Below are positions 22,251 to 53,049 of a stretch of DNA of 64,000 nucleotides, in pieces. Numbering within the stretch: position 1 is the first letter of the stretch; every line of letters starts with the position of its first letter. Made by a program: the position numbers and the translations under genes. The DNA comes from Psychroflexus planctonicus (GTDB lineage: Bacteria; Bacteroidota; Bacteroidia; Flavobacteriales; Flavobacteriaceae). The DNA lies in NCBI RefSeq assembly GCF_014640195.1, contig NZ_BMGM01000001.1:186001-250000 (forward strand), written 5' to 3'. Below the pieces are notes generated by a model, which was not told the origin of the DNA, did not search any database, and worked only from the letters and a program-made list of their open reading frames with translations.

Positions 22251-23689
22251 TGGAAGAAAAAAACCAACAAAACCAGAACCCATCTGATAAAAAAGGAAGC
22301 GATGTACAACGTAATGTAAAACAAACTTACGGCAGTATTCGTTCTTTTTTGCACGAATTACTCGATATCCGCGAAGATACCGATCGGGATTCTACAATGG
22401 AAGCCATTTTAAAAGACATTCCATTTAAAGGACATACTGCGTGGATTTTGGTTTTCTCGATAATTGTTGCTTCGGTTGGACTTAATGTGAGTTCTACAGC
22501 AGTTGTTATTGGCGCCATGCTTATTTCCCCATTAATGGGACCAATTGTGGGTGTAGGCTTTTCTGTAGCTATAAACGATATTGATACACTGAGAAGATCG
22601 CTTGTAAATTTAGGTGTAATGGTAGGTTTAAGTTTGCTAACTGCATTTTTATATTTCCAACTTTCGCCTTTAACTGAACTTACTCCAGAATTGGAAGCAA
22701 GAACTTATCCTACCATTTTAGATGTGTTGGTTGCCATCTTTGGTGGTTTAGCATTGATTATTGCTAAAACTAAAAAAGGAACAATTATTACGGTAATTTC
22801 TGGTGTAGCTATTGCAACTGCCTTAATGCCGCCATTGTGTACCGCTGGTTATGGTTTAGCCGTTTGGAATTTAAGCTACTTTGGCGGAGCTATGTATTTG
22901 TTTACCATTAATGCCATTTTTATTGCGCTTTCTACCTTTTTGGTTTCCAAAATTTTAAAATTTCCTTTGGTAAAATATGCCAATTCTATTCGTAGAAAAC
23001 GCATTGCGCAAATTGCTTCTACTATTGCGGTAATTGTAATGATTCCTAGTGTTTATCTTTTTTACAACTTGCTAAAAGAATCTTATTTTGAACAAGATGC
23101 AAAGCGTTTTGTTGAAGAAGAATTAATGGTATATAAAAATGCTTTTATTCAAAAAAATGCAACGGTTTACAACTATAATTCTGGAGTTGAGCCTGAGATA
23201 GAAGTTTCCTTTTTAGGAAAAGAAATACCGCAATCTGTAATTGATATATGGAAAGCTAAGTTGTCTTCGTATTCTGCTCTTGAAGATGCTAAGTTAAAAA
23301 TTCTTCAAAATGAAAACTCCGAAAATTTTGACCAAATGACTTACATCATGGAGTTAAAATCCCGTGATTCATTAGAAATAATTAGCAAAGGAAAAGAGAT
23401 TGAGCAGCTCAAAAAAGAAATGGAAAAAATAAAAGCTAGCGTAAAATATGTGCCATTTGGAGACATTGCTCAGGAGATAAAATTGAATTATGGCGATGTA
23501 GCTAATGTAGAATTTGCAGAGTTACTTTCTACCGATTTTAATAAATTAGACACCATTCCATACTTTAAAATTACCTGGAAAACCGAATTAGATAAAGAGC
23601 ATAAAGACGATTTCGAAAAGAAACTTTCCAATTGGTTGAGCTTCAAATTAAAGCAAGACAAGGTAAAAGTAGATATTGTTGAAGAGTAA
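22250..23689 (+). CDS. DUF389 domain-containing membrane protein
   Basis: 479 residues. A hydrophilic N-terminus of about 60 residues precedes five or six membrane helices (about residues 65-275) with the DUF389 signature A-V-V-I-G-A-M-L-I-S-P-L-M-G-P-I, then A-T-A-L-M-P-P-L-C-T. The last 180 residues are soluble and partly coiled-coil. The function of the family is not established; a transport or scaffolding role has been suggested. It closes the plus-strand operon and faces the minus-strand mlaF gene across 46 bases. Confidence 0.85.
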   Translation: MEEKNQQNQNPSDKKGSDVQRNVKQTYGSIRSFLHELLDIREDTDRDSTMEAILKDIPFKGHTAWILVFSIIVASVGLNVSSTAVVIGAMLISPLMGPIVGVGFSVAINDIDTLRRSLVNLGVMVGLSLLTAFLYFQLSPLTELTPELEARTYPTILDVLVAIFGGLALIIAKTKKGTIITVISGVAIATALMPPLCTAGYGLAVWNLSYFGGAMYLFTINAIFIALSTFLVSKILKFPLVKYANSIRRKRIAQIASTIAVIVMIPSVYLFYNLLKESYFEQDAKRFVEEELMVYKNAFIQKNATVYNYNSGVEPEIEVSFLGKEIPQSVIDIWKAKLSSYSALEDAKLKILQNENSENFDQMTYIMELKSRDSLEIISKGKEIEQLKKEMEKIKASVKYVPFGDIAQEIKLNYGDVANVEFAELLSTDFNKLDTIPYFKITWKTELDKEHKDDFEKKLSNWLSFKLKQDKVKVDIVEE

Positions 23690-46415: not shown

Positions 46416-47249
46416 ATGAAAAAAATCCTCGTACCAACCGATTTTTCACCGCTTGCAGAAAATGCATTGAAAATTGCAGCCAATATTGCGAAAAAACACA
46501 ATGCTGAAATTTTCTTATTACACCTTCTAGATTTACCACTAGACTTAATTGACCCTACGCAAGCAAACACCAGTAACGATTTACCTGAATCTATCTTTTT
46601 CATGAAATTGGCTCACCAAAAATTTACTGCAGCCATGAAAAAAGATTACTTAAAAGGAATTAAAGTTCATGAAACCGTTGAATTTAATGAAGCCTTTGAC
46701 GGAATTATGAAGGTAAGCAAAAAACATGATTGCGACTTGATTATTATGGGATCTCACGGAGCAGAAGGCTTAAAAGAAGTTTTTGTAGGTTCTAACACAG
46801 AAAAAGTTGTGCGCTATTCTGAAATACCTGTATTGGTAATTAAGAATAAAGCTGAAGATTTTAAGGCCGAACACTTGATATTTGCTACTAATCTAGCACT
46901 TGAAACAGTTGGTTCTTACCAAAATGCGCTCAAATTTTCGAAAAAAATGGGAGTAAAAATGAAAACTGTTTTTATTAATACGGTTGGAAAATTTAGAACT
47001 TCTGACCATATTGATGGGCAAATTGACAAGTTTAAAGAAGCCATTGATGATGAGCATTTTGATATTATTGTACGCAATGATAAAAATACAGAAGATGGTA
47101 TTTTAAATTATGCTGAGAAAATTAACGCAGACATGATTGGTATTGGAACTCATGGTAGAAAAGGAATTTCTAGACTACTAAATGGCAGCCTAAGTGAACA
47201 CTTAGTAAATCATGCTAAAAGACCAGTTATAACCTTTAAAATTAAGTAG
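46416..47249 (+). CDS. Universal stress protein, tandem UspA domains
   Basis: 277 residues with two UspA domains (about 1-145 and 150-277). Each ends with an ATP-loop type motif: G-S-H-G-A-E-G-L-K-E-V-F-V-G-S and G-T-H-G-R-K-G-I-S-R-L-L-N-G-S. It is cytosolic, probably nucleotide-binding, and linked to growth arrest or low-oxygen stress in other bacteria (family knowledge). It converges on a second usp gene 9 bases away. No promoter clearly matches the consensus. Confidence 0.9.
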   Translation: MKKILVPTDFSPLAENALKIAANIAKKHNAEIFLLHLLDLPLDLIDPTQANTSNDLPESIFFMKLAHQKFTAAMKKDYLKGIKVHETVEFNEAFDGIMKVSKKHDCDLIIMGSHGAEGLKEVFVGSNTEKVVRYSEIPVLVIKNKAEDFKAEHLIFATNLALETVGSYQNALKFSKKMGVKMKTVFINTVGKFRTSDHIDGQIDKFKEAIDDEHFDIIVRNDKNTEDGILNYAEKINADMIGIGTHGRKGISRLLNGSLSEHLVNHAKRPVITFKIK

Positions 47250-47257
47250 TATTTATT

Positions 47258-48043
47258 TTAAGCGTGTAAAATGAATAAGGGAGTTTTAAAATGTAAAGCT
47301 TCCTTATTTTGTTTTAATTCAGAAAAAACTTTGTTTCCTACACTTAGGTTTTTCGCCGCAAAAACCAACAAATCAAAATTTGTTGCTTCTTTGGTAACCG
47401 AATCTTCTTGCTTGGCTAAGTTTATAAATTCGAAACTTTGTTTTTTTAAAGTGTTTTCTAAAATTTGTTTGGAGCTTAGCACCAAATGTTCAGCCGTTGT
47501 CAATGGTTTTAATTCTAATATTTTAAGTGATAAACCTTTCCAAACGGGTAAGTTTTTTAGTTTATTTAAGCAAGCTGGGTACAATGCGTCTGTGTAATTT
47601 ACCGGAAACAAAGCAGATGTCGGTTTTACTACAGACGTGTTTTCAAAAACAATTAAAGCAGGGCATTTTACTTTGGTAGCAATGGCTTGAGTATAACTTC
47701 CTATTGCATTTTGATTTTTAGCAGATTTTCCTTTCGCCCCAATTACTAATATATCGATATTATGTTTAATTACTGCTGCACGGATTTCTTCAATAAAGCT
47801 TCCTTCTACTAAAACTGCTTTTGGTGGAGCTTGTTGATTAATCTTAACTAAGTCTTTTGCATCGCTCATCAATTTTTGATGCAATCCTAACTTGCATTTC
47901 CCACTGCATTTTTGGGAGTTTAAGCATGGTTTTTTGATATGCAGCAAGAAGAAGTTTACATCATGGTCTTTATATAATTCTAATGCGTACTGATGTGCGT
48001 GACGCGCATTAGTAGAAAAGTCGGTAAGCATTAAAATATTCAT
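47258..48043 (-). CDS. Universal stress protein, second copy
   Basis: 261 residues. The first UspA domain is intact (L-M-L-T-D-F-S at the start; I-G-A-K-G-K-S ... I-G-S-Y-T near residue 120). The second domain (about 140-261) is degenerate and lacks the glycine-rich loop. A cysteine-rich segment, C-L-N-S-Q-K-C-S-G-K-C-K-L-G at about 40-53, is unusual for the family and could bind a metal or sense redox state (inference). An FNR-type box lies upstream at 48099-48112, and the Crp/Fnr-output response regulator is the next gene. Confidence 0.85.
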   Translation of the reverse strand: MNILMLTDFSTNARHAHQYALELYKDHDVNFFLLHIKKPCLNSQKCSGKCKLGLHQKLMSDAKDLVKINQQAPPKAVLVEGSFIEEIRAAVIKHNIDILVIGAKGKSAKNQNAIGSYTQAIATKVKCPALIVFENTSVVKPTSALFPVNYTDALYPACLNKLKNLPVWKGLSLKILELKPLTTAEHLVLSSKQILENTLKKQSFEFINLAKQEDSVTKEATNFDLLVFAAKNLSVGNKVFSELKQNKEALHFKTPLFILHA

Positions 48044-48068
48044 CTGTAGTAGAAACTCAAAATTTCTA

Positions 48069-48112
48069 CAAATGTATTGGCGGATGAAGTTTTAAAAAAT
48101 GATTTTTATCAA
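48069..48112 (-). promoter_or_regulatory. FNR/Crp-type box and promoter of the second usp gene
   Basis: On the plus strand 48099-48112 reads ATGATTTTTATCAA, which matches the FNR consensus TTGATnnnnATCAA at nine of ten fixed positions. On the minus strand a TACATTTG -7 box lies at 48076-48069. If transcription starts 5-7 bases beyond it, the centre of the FNR-type box falls about 42 bases upstream, the class II activator position. The usp start codon is at 48043. Confidence 0.65.
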
Positions 48113-48126
48113 TCTAAGATGATTTC

Positions 48127-49167
48127 TTATTTTATCTTCTCCAGAGCATCAAAATCAATGATTTTTATGTTTCTACCTTCAATTTCTAAAATGCCTTCTT
48201 TTTTAAATTTAGAAAGCGTTCTGATTAAACTTTCGGAAGCAATTCCAGCAACTGCCGCTAAATCTGAACGTGAAATGCGAATTTGACTCAATTTGTTTCG
48301 TTTTAAACGCTCTGTAAATAATAATATAGTTTGAGCCGTTTTACGTTGAACAGAGCTGTAAGCCATATCTAATAATTGGTGCTTGGTTTCTTCCAAATTT
48401 TCATCTAACAAGTCTATAATGTCATACAAAACATGGTGATTATCTTCCAAGAAAGATTGCACTTCTTGTTTGGGTATGCAGTGTATTTCTGCATCTTCTA
48501 ATGCTGCTGCAAATTCTTTATATTCTACGGGTTTTTTAAAAATTAAATTTCCAAAAAAGGAATCTACTTTGTGTAGACCTGTAATCAATTCTTTTCCAGA
48601 ATCGTCTATTTGAAAAGTTTTAACTACTCCATTTTTAATTAAATAAAGGTTTGTTGCTGCTTCACCAGGTTGGTAAACATAGCTTCCAGCTGTGTAGCGC
48701 TTGGTGGCAAAATTCTTTAAGCGCTCCTTAAAATGCTCGATATTTAAGTTTTGCTTGATCTCAGACTTTTTTTCAGATCGTTTTGCTTTTAAGATGTCTG
48801 TTTTAGCAATTCTACTTTCTATGGCGTTAATCAAATCTTCTTCTTCAAAAGGCTTGGTTAGATAATCGTCTGCGCCCAATTCCATTCCTTTTCTAACATC
48901 TTTATGGTCTGTTTTGGCCGAAAGAAAAATAAATGGAATTTCTAATGTAGTATCATCTTGTGCTAGGTTTGTTAAGACGTCGTAGCCATCCATTTCTGGC
49001 ATCATTACATCACAAACTATAATATCAGGTAATTCACTTTTTGCTTTTTCTACTCCTTCTTTTCCGTTTTTAGCAGTAAAAACGGTGTAGTCTGAAAGCA
49101 TTAAAAGTTCTTCGGTATTTTCTCTTACCGTTTTGTCATCTTCAATTAAAAGTACTCTTTTACTCAT
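48127..49167 (-). CDS. Response regulator with receiver and Crp/Fnr output domains
   Basis: 346 residues. The N-terminal receiver domain has phospho-acceptor Asp53 (I-I-V-C-D-V-M-M-P-E-M-D-G-Y-D). A linker precedes a cyclic-nucleotide-binding-like barrel (about 150-260, with L-I-K-N-G-V-V-K-T). The C-terminal Crp-type HTH is S-R-S-D-L-A-A-V-A-G-I-A-S-E-S-L-I-R-T-L. No FNR-type cysteine cluster is seen, so the signal comes from its kinase. It overlaps the kinase gene by 8 bases. The nearby FNR-type box makes the second usp gene a likely target (inference). Confidence 0.9.
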   Translation of the reverse strand: MSKRVLLIEDDKTVRENTEELLMLSDYTVFTAKNGKEGVEKAKSELPDIIVCDVMMPEMDGYDVLTNLAQDDTTLEIPFIFLSAKTDHKDVRKGMELGADDYLTKPFEEEDLINAIESRIAKTDILKAKRSEKKSEIKQNLNIEHFKERLKNFATKRYTAGSYVYQPGEAATNLYLIKNGVVKTFQIDDSGKELITGLHKVDSFFGNLIFKKPVEYKEFAAALEDAEIHCIPKQEVQSFLEDNHHVLYDIIDLLDENLEETKHQLLDMAYSSVQRKTAQTILLFTERLKRNKLSQIRISRSDLAAVAGIASESLIRTLSKFKKEGILEIEGRNIKIIDFDALEKIK

Positions 49168-50407
49168 ATTTTATTGGTATTTCAAAAGAAAAAACACTGC
49201 CTTTGTCTTCTTCGCTGGTAAAGTTCATTTTACCACCTAAGTTTTCCAGATGTACTTTTGCAATGTTCAATCCTATTCCTGTTCCTTGGTTAAGTATTGC
49301 ATTTTCCGCTCTAAAATAGCGTTCAAATATATGTTTTTGATCTTTTTTAGGTATCCCAATGCCTTGGTCTTTTACTTCGAAATAAACTTTATTGTTTTCT
49401 TTTTTAATATTAAAATGTATTAAAGTGTCTTCCCCTGAATATTTAATAGCATTTCCTAACAAATTGGTGAGCACTAATTCTAAAACACTTTTGTCTTGTT
49501 TCATTACGCAATCTTCAAGGTCTTTTTGGTAAATAATATCTTGGCCATTTTTAAGATTAATATTTGCCGAATAAACTACTTCATTAACCAAGCCAACTAG
49601 ACTAAACTCTTCGAACTTATAGTTTACTTTTCCAGACTCAAGGCGCTCTATTGAAAGAAAATCGTTTAAGATATTGGTTAAATAATGTACTTTGTTTTTT
49701 ATGGTTGTCAGGTGTTTTTCTCTGTTGGGTTGTTGTTCTTCTTTTTGATACTTCCCAATGAGTGTTGCAGAAGATAAAATACCGCTTAAGGGTGTTTTAA
49801 ATTCGTGAGAAACCAAAGACAGGAATTTGGTTTTTAAATCGTTTAACTCTTTTTGTTTTTTTAAAGAATCTTTTATCTTGGTTTCAGCTTGCTTTCGCTT
49901 TTTTATTTCTAGCTCTAAGTCTCTGTTAAACTCGTACAATTTATCTACAGTTTCTTTGAGTTCTTGCGTTCGTTGGTCTACTTTTCTCTCTAAAGCTTGG
50001 TTTAATTCTGCAATTTCTTTTTCGTTTTCTTTTCGAACACTAATATCTGTTATAAGCGATAGTACAAAGCTTTCACCTTTGTAGTTAAATGGGCTCAATC
50101 CTGCTTCAACTGGAAATTTTTCACCTGATTTTTTAACACCAAACAAGTCGCGCCCTACACCCATTTTTCGGCTTTCGCCTTTTTCCATAAAAAGCTTAAA
50201 ATAAGCATCGTGTTTAGCATGAACTCGACTAGGAATAAGCGCATTTAAATGTTCACCAAGCAACTCGTTATTTGCGTAACCAAACATTTCTTCTGCAGAG
50301 TGATTAACTTGAACTATAATTTGGTCTTGATTCACTACCAAAACACCTTCGGAAACACCCTTAAATAAAATTGAAAAAACTTTTTGTTGGTCGGTTTCTT
50401 GAAACAC
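49160..50407 (-). CDS. PAS domain sensor histidine kinase
   Basis: 415 residues with a GTG start at 50407; there is no in-frame ATG before residue 41, and a stop lies a few codons upstream. A PAS/PAC domain (about 8-125) is followed by a coiled coil (about 126-190), then HisKA with His201 (S-L-V-S-H-E-F-K-T-P-L), and HATPase with L-G-N-A-I-K-Y-S, D-Q-G-I-G-I-P and G-T-G-I-G-L-N-I-A-K. No membrane helix, so it senses a cytosolic cue. No heme or flavin ligand could be assigned by eye. It is the partner of the Crp/Fnr-output regulator downstream. Confidence 0.92.
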   Translation of the reverse strand: MFQETDQQKVFSILFKGVSEGVLVVNQDQIIVQVNHSAEEMFGYANNELLGEHLNALIPSRVHAKHDAYFKLFMEKGESRKMGVGRDLFGVKKSGEKFPVEAGLSPFNYKGESFVLSLITDISVRKENEKEIAELNQALERKVDQRTQELKETVDKLYEFNRDLELEIKKRKQAETKIKDSLKKQKELNDLKTKFLSLVSHEFKTPLSGILSSATLIGKYQKEEQQPNREKHLTTIKNKVHYLTNILNDFLSIERLESGKVNYKFEEFSLVGLVNEVVYSANINLKNGQDIIYQKDLEDCVMKQDKSVLELVLTNLLGNAIKYSGEDTLIHFNIKKENNKVYFEVKDQGIGIPKKDQKHIFERYFRAENAILNQGTGIGLNIAKVHLENLGGKMNFTSEEDKGSVFSFEIPIKYE

Positions 50408-50640
50408 AGATTTATTTTTTATCGTTCAAATTTACAATACATTTAGATTTTTACCGCTTAAGCGAAAAGAAATTACAAAAATACACTTCCTAAGCTTCAT
50501 TTATTATGTTTTTACGAGTGCTTAAAGTATTTGTAATGTGTAAATTGAAGTTAAACATCAAGGCATTTAAAAGCTTTTACGAAAGCTTCACTTACATTGC
50601 ATTGGTTTTAATAAATTTGCGAACTTTTTAAAACATAGCG

Positions 50641-53049
50641 TTGAAGTTACTTACATTTGGTTTTTGGAATACCGTTGCTCGTTTCATATTAAGAAATAGA
50701 ATCTTGATTATTGTACTGCTAATAGCTAGTACAATCTTTTTATCATCGCATTGGAGTAAAATGCGATTCTCTCATACCGAAGCTAACTTATTGCCCGATA
50801 AAGATTCAATTAACCTAGAATATCAAGGTTTTTTAGAAAAATTTGGAGACGAAGGAAATTTAATTGTTATAGCTACTAAAGATGCGGATTTATTTACTCC
50901 AGAAAAGTATTCTGCTTGGGTGCAACTGGCAGATTCATTAGAAAAATATCCAGAAGTAGAATACAGTATTGGTATTGGAAACCTTCAAAAGCTACAAAAA
51001 AATGAAGAACAAAAATCTTTTGAATTTATTGCAGCTTATCCCGAAAACCCTGAAAACGAAGAAGATTTATTAGCTTACCAAAAACAACTTTTTGAAGAAT
51101 TGCCGTTTTATGAAGGTTTGGTTTACAGCAAAAAATCGAATACTGTTCAAACTGCAATTTACCTTGATAAGGCCATTGTTAACGAAAAGGAACGCAAAGA
51201 TTTTGTGCTTCAAGACCTTGTTCCTTTTATTGAAAGTTTTCAAGAACAACACAACATCAAGTTATATGTTTCAGGAATGCCATACATCCGTACGCTCAAT
51301 TCCAAAAATATTGTAGATGAGATACAATGGTTTGTAATTGCAGCTTTATTGGTAACTTCATTTATCTTCTTCTTTTTCTTTAGAAGCTACAGAGCAACGC
51401 TTATTTCTATGCTTACCGTTGTAATTGGTGTAATGTGGGCTTTTGGATTTTTAGGCTGGTTTGGTTACGAAATTACGGTATTAACAGCCATTATTCCACC
51501 TTTAATTATTGTAATTGGTATACCAAATTGCATCTTTTTAATCAATAAGTATCAACAAGAAATAAAAAAGCACGGAAATCAGGCTAAGTCTTTGCAGCGG
51601 GTGATTACCAAAATTGGGAATGCCACTTTAATGACCAATTTAACCACTGCTTCTGGTTTTGCCACTTTTATTTTTACACAAAGTGAATTATTAACCGAGT
51701 TTGGAGTTGTTGCTTCGGTTTGTATTCTTTCTATTTTCTTACTCAGCTTACTTATTATTCCTATTATTTATAGCTATATGCCGGCTCCAAAAGACAAGCA
51801 CCTTAGGCATCTTGGCAAACAATGGATTGAAGGTTTTGTAGATTGGATGGAAGCCAAAGTGAGATTTAATCGCGTAAGTATATATTTTGTTTCAGTAGGA
51901 GTTTTAGCCATTAGTATAATTGGAATCTTTAATATCAGAATTTCTGGCAGCTTGTTAGAAGACATGCCACAGAAGGCAGAGTTTTTTAAAGACATTCAAT
52001 TTTTTGAAGAAGAATTTGATGGCATCATGCCTTTAGAAATAATGATAAATACCAAGCGACCACAAGGTGTGACCAAACTATCTACCATTCAGAAAATGGA
52101 AAAACTTTCTGAAATTATTACAGATTTACCACAGCTTTCTAGACCTTTATCTATAGTAGATGTTGCCAAGTATAGCAAGCAGAGTTTTTATAATAATAAT
52201 CCTAAATATTATCAATTACCTACACGACAAGAACAAAATTTCATAGCTCCTTATATTAAAAGTTTGGACAATGACGAAAATAGATTTGCTGCTTACATAG
52301 ACTCAACTGGGCAATATGCAAGGATGACAACCTTTATGAAAGATGTAGGTACAGAAGAAATGGAGCAAATTGAAGCTACACTTTGGCCTCAAATCAACAA
52401 AATTTTTCCAGATGGACAATTTGAAGTGAGCATCACTGGAAAAGCCTTGATTTTTCAAAAAGGAACGCGCTATTTGGTTAAAAATTTAATTATATCACTT
52501 GGGTTGGCCATTTTACTTATTGCAATATTCATGGCATGGATGTTTCGTTCTTTCCGAATGATTTTAATTTCCTTAATTCCAAATTTACTTCCCCTGTTAA
52601 TGACGGCTGGTATGATGGGTTGGCTGGGTATTCCTATAAAACCATCAACTATTCTGGTATTTAGTATAGCTTTTGGAATTAGTGTAGATGATACCATTCA
52701 CTTCTTGGCCAAGTATAGACAAGAACTAAAAGCAAACCATTGGAAAATTAAAAAATCGGTTTACCCTGCTTTACGCGAAACGGCGGTGAGCATGTTTTAT
52801 ACTTCTATTGTACTCTTCTTTGGATTTTCAGTGTTCATGATCTCTAGTTTTGGTGGTACAGTTGCTTTAGGTGGTCTAGTTTCAGCTACTTTATTGTTTG
52901 CCATGTTAGCTAACCTATTGCTTTTACCTTCACTTTTGCTTTCTTTAGAAAGAAGCATTGCCAATAAAAAAACATTGAAGGAACCACAAATGAAAATTAT
53001 TGATAGTGAAGAAGACGAACAAAACATTTCTGAACAAGGGGGAAAATAA
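50641..53049 (+). CDS. MMPL/RND family exporter
   Basis: 802 residues with a TTG start at 50641. The first ATG (50761) would remove the first membrane helix (R-I-L-I-I-V-L-L-I-A-S-T), so TTG is preferred. Twelve helices in two sets (about 20-40 and 225-385; about 415-435 and 625-775) surround two periplasmic domains, the RND plan. G-I-S-V-D-D-T-I-H-F in the second set is the proton-relay segment seen in MMPL and hopanoid exporters. A TAAATTTG box at 50612-50619 could drive it. A terminator follows. The substrate may be lipid or drug. Confidence 0.88.
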   Translation: MKLLTFGFWNTVARFILRNRILIIVLLIASTIFLSSHWSKMRFSHTEANLLPDKDSINLEYQGFLEKFGDEGNLIVIATKDADLFTPEKYSAWVQLADSLEKYPEVEYSIGIGNLQKLQKNEEQKSFEFIAAYPENPENEEDLLAYQKQLFEELPFYEGLVYSKKSNTVQTAIYLDKAIVNEKERKDFVLQDLVPFIESFQEQHNIKLYVSGMPYIRTLNSKNIVDEIQWFVIAALLVTSFIFFFFFRSYRATLISMLTVVIGVMWAFGFLGWFGYEITVLTAIIPPLIIVIGIPNCIFLINKYQQEIKKHGNQAKSLQRVITKIGNATLMTNLTTASGFATFIFTQSELLTEFGVVASVCILSIFLLSLLIIPIIYSYMPAPKDKHLRHLGKQWIEGFVDWMEAKVRFNRVSIYFVSVGVLAISIIGIFNIRISGSLLEDMPQKAEFFKDIQFFEEEFDGIMPLEIMINTKRPQGVTKLSTIQKMEKLSEIITDLPQLSRPLSIVDVAKYSKQSFYNNNPKYYQLPTRQEQNFIAPYIKSLDNDENRFAAYIDSTGQYARMTTFMKDVGTEEMEQIEATLWPQINKIFPDGQFEVSITGKALIFQKGTRYLVKNLIISLGLAILLIAIFMAWMFRSFRMILISLIPNLLPLLMTAGMMGWLGIPIKPSTILVFSIAFGISVDDTIHFLAKYRQELKANHWKIKKSVYPALRETAVSMFYTSIVLFFGFSVFMISSFGGTVALGGLVSATLLFAMLANLLLLPSLLLSLERSIANKKTLKEPQMKIIDSEEDEQNISEQGGK

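Follow-up and report, generated by a model that had tools for sequence, protein, structure and literature searches.

Background

FixJ is a receiver with a LuxR/NarL-type HTH, and FixK is a CRP/FNR protein without a receiver which is controlled via its transcription. E. coli FNR has the recognition helix E--SR; the Glu and Arg of this helix are the readers of TGA, the FNR Glu contacting the DNA, and -41.5 is the textbook class II position. In the rhizobial FixL-FixJ-FixK and hFixL-FxkR-FixK cascades (PMC7888657, PMC4999443), a FixL-like PAS kinase stands upstream, a CRP/FNR-type box lies before the cbb3 oxidase, and in some species a parallel FNR-type regulator reads the same box. All three features are common to those cascades and to the system analysed here, which was found in the window, the whole stretch of 64,000 nucleotides of Psychroflexus planctonicus DNA that was studied.

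The window's regulator joins a receiver and a CRP-type output in one protein (the receiver-CRP), so that there is no intermediate transcription factor, and the job of the three proteins FixL, FixJ and FixK would, by analogy, be done here by two. Unlike that of FixJ, its output consists of cNMP_binding and HTH_Crp_2 domains, and unlike FixK it has the receiver fused to it. With E. coli FNR and rhizobial FnrN it shares the CRP-type fold, the helix Glu and Arg, the TGA core, the class II position and overlapping kinds of target, but it has Ile in place of the helix Ser in 78 of 78 aligned proteins, and it lacks the conserved N-terminal cysteine cluster expected of a 4Fe-4S protein: 75 of the 78 have one to three cysteines, and the only positions with Cys in at least 20 of them are 52 (77/78) and 184 (40/78). 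The phosphate-binding Arg-Ser of cAMP-CRP is presumably absent as well, judging by eye. By the features tested, the receiver-CRP is neither FNR, FixJ nor FixK. The DNA site also departs from the Fix cascades, since the flavobacterial box, placed at -41.5 relative to a TAnnTTTG promoter, has the form (A/C)TGAYnnnnRTCAT and not TTGATnnnnATCAA. A standalone FNR-like regulator of Flavobacteriaceae, which differs from the receiver-CRP in having no receiver, has nearly the same recognition helix and, when it is alone in a genome, the same kind of sites. DosP (EcDOS), the heme PAS of which is the best PDB match of the window's kinase PAS, is a phosphodiesterase, unlike the kinase (PMC4263535).

The literature found says little about low-oxygen sensing in flavobacteria, although these bacteria are plentiful both in the sea and in soils. 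In F. psychrophilum oxygen limitation induces the cbb3 oxidase and heme synthesis, and words that start with fnr or crp are absent from the main text of that report (PMC9723704); CRP/FNR homologues of Flavobacteriales have been treated as likely MalR homologues and scanned with a MalR matrix (PMC8510549). No description of a FixL-like kinase paired with a receiver-CRP in Bacteroidota was found in a limited search of titles and abstract openings. With an exact DNA code and two predicted circuit proteins to look for, a family-wide microaerobic regulon would become readable from sequence.

Gene order and promoter architecture

The kinase gene, the receiver-CRP gene, the box and usp follow one another in that order on the minus strand (Table 1). 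The first-pass annotation had called the regulator gene the next gene; in the direction of transcription it comes before usp and behind the kinase gene, all three sharing one strand, and the box sits in the gap between regulator and usp, a gap in which a terminator scan found none. The plus strand reads ATGATTTTTATCAA at the box, and the letters bear out the earlier observation that the box differs from TTGATnnnnATCAA at one fixed base. On the usp strand 22 bases separate TTGATAAAAATCAT from TACATTTG, and the distance from the box centre to the first T of TACATTTG is exactly 29.5 bases. In the F. psychrophilum start-site map (PMC9723704), TAnnTTTG occupies -12 to -5 and the median leader is 24. 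If the first T of TACATTTG is placed at -12 on the strength of that map, the predicted leader is 21 nt long and the box centre falls at -41.5, in agreement with the value of about 42 proposed previously and at the position of a class II CRP/FNR operator.

Table 1. Coordinates of the features discussed; positions without a prefix are those of the window.
Feature	Position	Strand	Remarks
Histidine kinase gene	49160..50407	-	415-aa frame from GTG; PAS, HisKA, HATPase_c; overlaps regulator gene by 8 nt
Receiver-CRP regulator gene	48127..49167	-	346 aa; Response_reg, cNMP_binding, HTH_Crp_2; predicted box reader
CRP/FNR-type operator, predicted	48099..48112	-	TTGATAAAAATCAT on usp strand, 48112 to 48099
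TACATTTG, matching TAnnTTTG	48069..48076	-	runs 48076 to 48069; -7 element of the Bacteroidota housekeeping promoter, position of the element after PMC9723704
Predicted transcription start (A)	48064	-	21 nt before usp ATG at 48043; placed after the F. psychrophilum map
usp, universal stress protein gene	47258..48043	-	261 aa, Pfam Usp; gene behind the box
Second usp gene	46416..47249	+	converges on the first
One-mismatch match to box plus promoter	23306..23348	-	opposite strand has a 484-codon frame over it
Rhodopsin-like gene (presumed)	L119:2815..3579		
Exact site behind the rhodopsin-like gene	L119:3693..3735		before a 44-aa membrane-type peptide frame
Fused CcoN and CcoO	L121:5650..7851		one 733-aa protein (COX1 + FixO)
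Standalone FNR-like genes with CxxC	L130:3297..3974; L131:4042..4719; L133:2298..2975		divergent from a large metal-ATPase-like gene (fixI-like, by eye)
Apparently shared palindromic boxes	G017:C2:256994..257067; G034:C1:796645..796719		gap 22 or 23 on each side

A sigma-70 -35/-10 promoter for usp was considered and rejected: the stretch 47200-50700 contains 11 such sites against 12.0 expected, none of them at the box. No box with at most one mismatch precedes the kinase gene in 50380-50760, and for this reason there is no sign of autoregulation. The second usp gene is preceded by neither an exact nor a one-mismatch form of the box-plus-promoter pattern, and the one-mismatch match elsewhere in the window (Table 1) is probably due to chance.

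The proposed circuit

The reading to which we assign a probability of about 0.7 is that low oxygen acts through the FixL/DosP-like kinase and the receiver-CRP to produce class II activation of the box promoters. As oxygen falls, it would leave the heme of the kinase PAS, whereupon the kinase would autophosphorylate and then phosphorylate D53 of the receiver-CRP; the phosphorylated dimer would bind (A/C)TGAYnnnnRTCAT centred at -41.5 and recruit RNA polymerase to TAnnTTTG promoters without a conserved TTG at -33, the predicted targets including usp, the cbb3 oxidase operon, fixH and the hemN-like gene together with the second usp behind it. For the binding, the activation, the control by phosphorylation, the heme and oxygen as the signal we infer this from the site, its spacing, the regulon, the conservation, the domain make-up and the dependence of the sites on regulator presence, all of which are observed. 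The comparative evidence (targets, conservation, helix and PAS) thus favours the low-oxygen two-component switch through an FNR-type site that had been suggested for this locus, although the suggestion of a single switch at usp gives way to a whole regulon.

Conservation across related loci

Relatives of the locus were searched in one genome per species; of the 126 relatives that were found the best 80 loci, mostly from Flavobacteriaceae to judge by the record titles, were retained; four without a full regulator match were dropped, which left 76 loci and the window's own, 77 in all, for comparison. In all but two of the 76 related loci, hence in 74, a kinase match ends next to the regulator gene (the exceptions are L036, which starts at a contig end, and L064, which has no kinase match), and usp is next in line on the same strand in 70 of the 77, the window included. 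These 70 usp promoters represent 68 distinct regions. The core TGAYnnnnRTCA is present in the regulator-usp gap of 68 of them, and TA stands at the fixed distance (+35) in 67, with the exact TAnnTTTG there in 45. L073 (Saprospiraceae) is the only locus with the core and no TA at +35, and L045 and L047 have, instead of the exact core, TGAGGAATGTCA, one base off and likewise between regulator and usp. At seven loci the next gene in line gives no usp match, at L058 because its contig ends, and at all seven the core is absent from the stretch scanned behind the regulator. Two further observations concern individual loci: L046 has a second core besides the promoter-placed one, and L005, L006 and L007, whose regulators are 69-70% identical to the window's, keep kinase and regulator with M or K at the predicted heme-pocket Arg, while both usp and the core box are absent from the 300 bases behind the regulator.

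Of the promoter-placed cores, 67 in number, 36 have C before TGA, 23 have A, 4 have G and only 4 have T, the base of the FNR site, and every one has T after TCA; the clade consensus is (A/C)TGAYnnnnRTCAT, in place of the E. coli TTGATnnnnATCAA. In the -33 region of the same 67 promoters T predominates at offsets 14-16 (47, 49 and 58 promoters), and no conserved TTG is found, G standing at offset 17 in 4. A TAnnTTTG element without a conserved TTG at -33 fits a promoter that would depend on an activator.

The regulon in the Psychroflexus planctonicus genome

The 43-base pattern TGAYnnnnRTCA-N23-TAnnTTTG has eight exact matches in the 3.11 Mb genome, and the reversed pattern has none. Besides the site before usp of the window locus, exact sites lie before a DeoC gene with PNP_UDP_1, before the 44-aa membrane-type peptide frame that follows a gene we take to be rhodopsin-like (Table 1), before YceI, 210 nt from a COX1-FixO fusion followed by FixP and FixG genes, before an acetyl-CoA hydrolase, before FixH with DsbD_2, and before a Radical_SAM gene, presumably hemN-like, which is followed by a second Usp gene. 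For the hemN-like gene the ATG 17 nt behind the site was chosen as the start, the longer frame being one that would cross the site. The fusion joins CcoN and CcoO in a single protein. A set containing usp, the cbb3 oxidase, fixH and the hemN-like gene is of the kind expected of FNR or FixK, and on their sequence context the eight exact sites are a predicted microaerobic-type regulon.

When one mismatch is allowed, the pattern has 28 matches against 8 for the reversed control. At least 5 of the 20 one-mismatch sites are promoter-like in placement; they precede CBS, an Na_sulph_symp transporter, OsmC with cytochrome bd subunit I behind it, a Pyr_redox_2 protein, and a FixI-like metal ATPase that has ATPase-cat_bd. 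Many of the others lie inside or under long frames and may be due to chance. The E. coli form is a poor guide to this regulon: a genome scan for TTGATnnnnATCAA gives 35 matches (9 for the reversed control), which include none of the eight exact promoter-placed sites, and the two that the one-mismatch promoter scan also picks up are overlain on the opposite strand by frames of 531 and 193 codons. As the relevant consensus, TTGATnnnnATCAA is therefore replaced by the clade form.

The kinase as a candidate oxygen sensor

At E <=0.001 there are 14 distinct PDB sequences that match the kinase PAS, and 13 of these are DosP/EcDOS or FixL heme domains, although the 13 amount to two kinds of protein and heme PAS domains may be over-represented in the PDB. 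The best match is DosP (E 2.3e-16; we take the entry labelled yddU to be DosP/EcDOS), and the fourteenth is another sensor kinase (6.8e-7). Kinase His66 aligns with the His of EHDGY and Arg86 with the Arg of GIDR in the FixL sequence 1d06. In S. meliloti FixL His194 is the heme ligand and Arg214 bonds the heme-bound ligand (PMC10765370); the equation of the EHDGY His and the GIDR Arg with these two residues is our own reading. Together with HisKA and HATPase_c, a PAS with the predicted heme His and ligand Arg gives the window's kinase the domain make-up of FixL. Seven other PAS_9 matches occur in the genome, and three were tested as controls: the first has as its best PDB match 3mr0 (3.7e-16, non-heme by name) and matches FixL at 2e-7, on another part of the FixL chain, the second has a weak partial match to DosP (E 0.0006), and the third matches neither DosP nor FixL. 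A DosP/FixL-like PAS with His66 and Arg86, unlike the three controls, makes a heme oxygen sensor the likely prediction, and the kinase PAS probably binds heme and senses oxygen.

It is possible that the circuit is right and the signal is another one, the PAS sensing NO, CO or redox, or acting without heme, in which case the genes would form a general respiratory stress regulon. Likeness to a heme PAS and two conserved residues are no proof of heme, and the residues themselves are not equally constant: among the 75 kinases of at least 350 aa the predicted heme His is kept in 72, the three exceptions being the remote matches L082-L084, and the predicted ligand Arg in 65 (two of them remote), with M in 4, L in 3, K in 2 and Y in 1. 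In 9 of the 72 kinases which retain the His, the close relatives L005-L007 included, the Arg is replaced by M, L or K, so that the ligand pocket varies, and usp, OsmC, YceI, acetyl-CoA hydrolase and the nucleoside genes are not specific to oxygen. A signal other than oxygen is nevertheless unlikely, given that all but one of the matched PDB sequences are oxygen sensors, that the control PAS domains have no comparable match, and that a high-affinity oxidase with the genes for its assembly makes up the core of the target set.

Which protein reads the box

Rather than being controlled by phosphorylation, the CRP part might act independently of a vestigial receiver and respond to protein level or a small ligand, as the retained cyclic-nucleotide-binding fold might suggest. 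This is improbable, since the phospho-accepting Asp (D53), Lys (K105) and Ser/Thr of the receiver are kept in 78 of 78 aligned receiver-CRP proteins, the Asp and Lys being identical throughout, and the kinase gene adjoins the regulator gene in nearly all related loci.

The question of which protein reads the box can be narrowed within the genome itself, which encodes two HTH_Crp_2 proteins, the receiver-CRP and a protein at C3:67272, and three cNMP_binding matches, the third of them in a 659-aa frame. The receiver-CRP helix is ASESLIRTL, of which E312, I315 and R316 are identical in 78 of 78 aligned proteins, and that of the C3:67272 protein is SRVVISRLL, with V at the place of the FNR Glu in an alignment made by eye. 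To judge from these helices, the receiver-CRP is the only one of the two CRP-type proteins with the expected TGA-reading helix. The standalone FNR-like proteins L130, L131, L132 and L133 have the helix TESAIR, compared with T/S/P-ESLIR in the receiver-CRP, and with helices so nearly identical both kinds of regulator could read the same DNA. All four have CxxC near the N terminus, which suggests direct sensing by an Fe-S cluster. Three of the standalone genes are divergent from a large metal-ATPase-like gene (Table 1).

The relation between regulators and sites was surveyed in 199 family genomes (198 genera), in which 1406 sites fit the exact pattern and 29, by a hand count, fit the reversed one. 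The genomes were classed by two family-wide protein searches with chosen limits, E <=1e-35 for the receiver-CRP query, where G181 (7.6e-39) and G025 (1.0e-35) fall just inside and G119 (1.2e-31) outside, and <=1e-55 for the standalone query, where there is a clear gap from 2.3e-58 to 1.5e-46. The 37 genomes with the receiver-CRP only have a median of 8 sites (36 with at least 3), the 72 with the standalone FNR-like protein only a median of 5.5 (63 with at least 3), the 44 with both a median of 12 (all 44 with at least 3), and the 46 with neither a median of 0 (5 with at least 3, 26 with none). Across the 199 genomes the box sites follow the presence of the regulators. Genome size was rejected as the cause of the difference: the 14 genomes of at least 2.5 Mb with neither regulator have a median of 1 site, and 3 of the 14 have at least 3. 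The class with neither includes G043 and G020 (standalone query about 1e-46), which have 2 and 1 sites. Its five members with at least 3 sites are G048 (82% complete, 9 sites) and G147 (73% complete, 7 sites), in which neither regulator has more than a weak match, and G051, G138 and G194, in which weaker CRP-type matches are present. Some of the genomes classed as receiver-CRP only contain another CRP-type protein of about 250-260 aa (standalone query 1e-33 to 1e-41), so that in this class the receiver-CRP need not always be the sole possible reader.

The standalone-only genomes carry the same sites, and the box is thus not specific to the receiver-CRP. It might accordingly be supposed that in the window's genome too the main reader of the box is some other CRP/FNR protein, for which the protein at C3:67272 is a candidate, and that the receiver-CRP controls other genes. 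This appears quite improbable: no standalone FNR-like protein is present in the genome (best match 6.2e-25, against <=2.3e-58 in genomes scored positive), the C3:67272 protein is without the helix Glu, and the receiver-CRP-only genomes retain the sites. On balance we favour the view that two regulators share one cis code, (A/C)TGAYnnnnRTCAT exactly 22 bases before TAnnTTTG, which would be driven either by the cysteine-bearing FNR-like protein or by the heme kinase and receiver-CRP, a lineage retaining either system or both without loss of the regulon; the window's genome would then be a natural swap of an Fe-S sensor for a two-component heme sensor with the DNA unchanged. Coexistence with an FNR-like protein in the family parallels hFixL-FnrN of Rhizobium leguminosarum (PMC7888657), and the family would offer, in parallel to that rhizobial pair, a natural example of one sensor taking the place of another while the set of promoters stays fixed.

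Spacing and targets across the family

In a variable-gap search of 60 family genomes, gap 22 accounts for 65 among the 150 matches listed and gaps 21 and 23 for 8 and 9, and no other gap exceeds 9 among these matches. A small peak at gap 11 (9 among the matches listed) looks like a coding repeat because its letters repeat. The idea that the box is a chance match in AT-rich intergenic DNA, for which the AT-rich look of the window and the reversed-control matches of the one-mismatch search might be cited, is contradicted by the gap-22 peak, by the box and its spacing being kept in 67 of 70 promoters and by the eight exact sites in the genome against none for the reversed pattern, and it can be set aside as extremely improbable.

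The genes behind exact sites were compared with the targets in the window's genome for two receiver-CRP-only genomes, G130 and G101, and one standalone-only genome, G107. The relatives of those targets that stand behind sites are, in G130, usp, ccoNO, a hemN-like gene with usp, and Pyr_redox (4 of 11 sites); in G101, a hemN-like gene, four usp genes, YceI and Pyr_redox (7 of 9); and in G107, ccoNO and a hemN-like gene with usp (2 of 10). The four usp genes of G101 (L150, L151) are close together, each with its own box before it, and at one place in each of two other genomes (Table 1) a single palindromic box appears to be shared by two divergent promoters.
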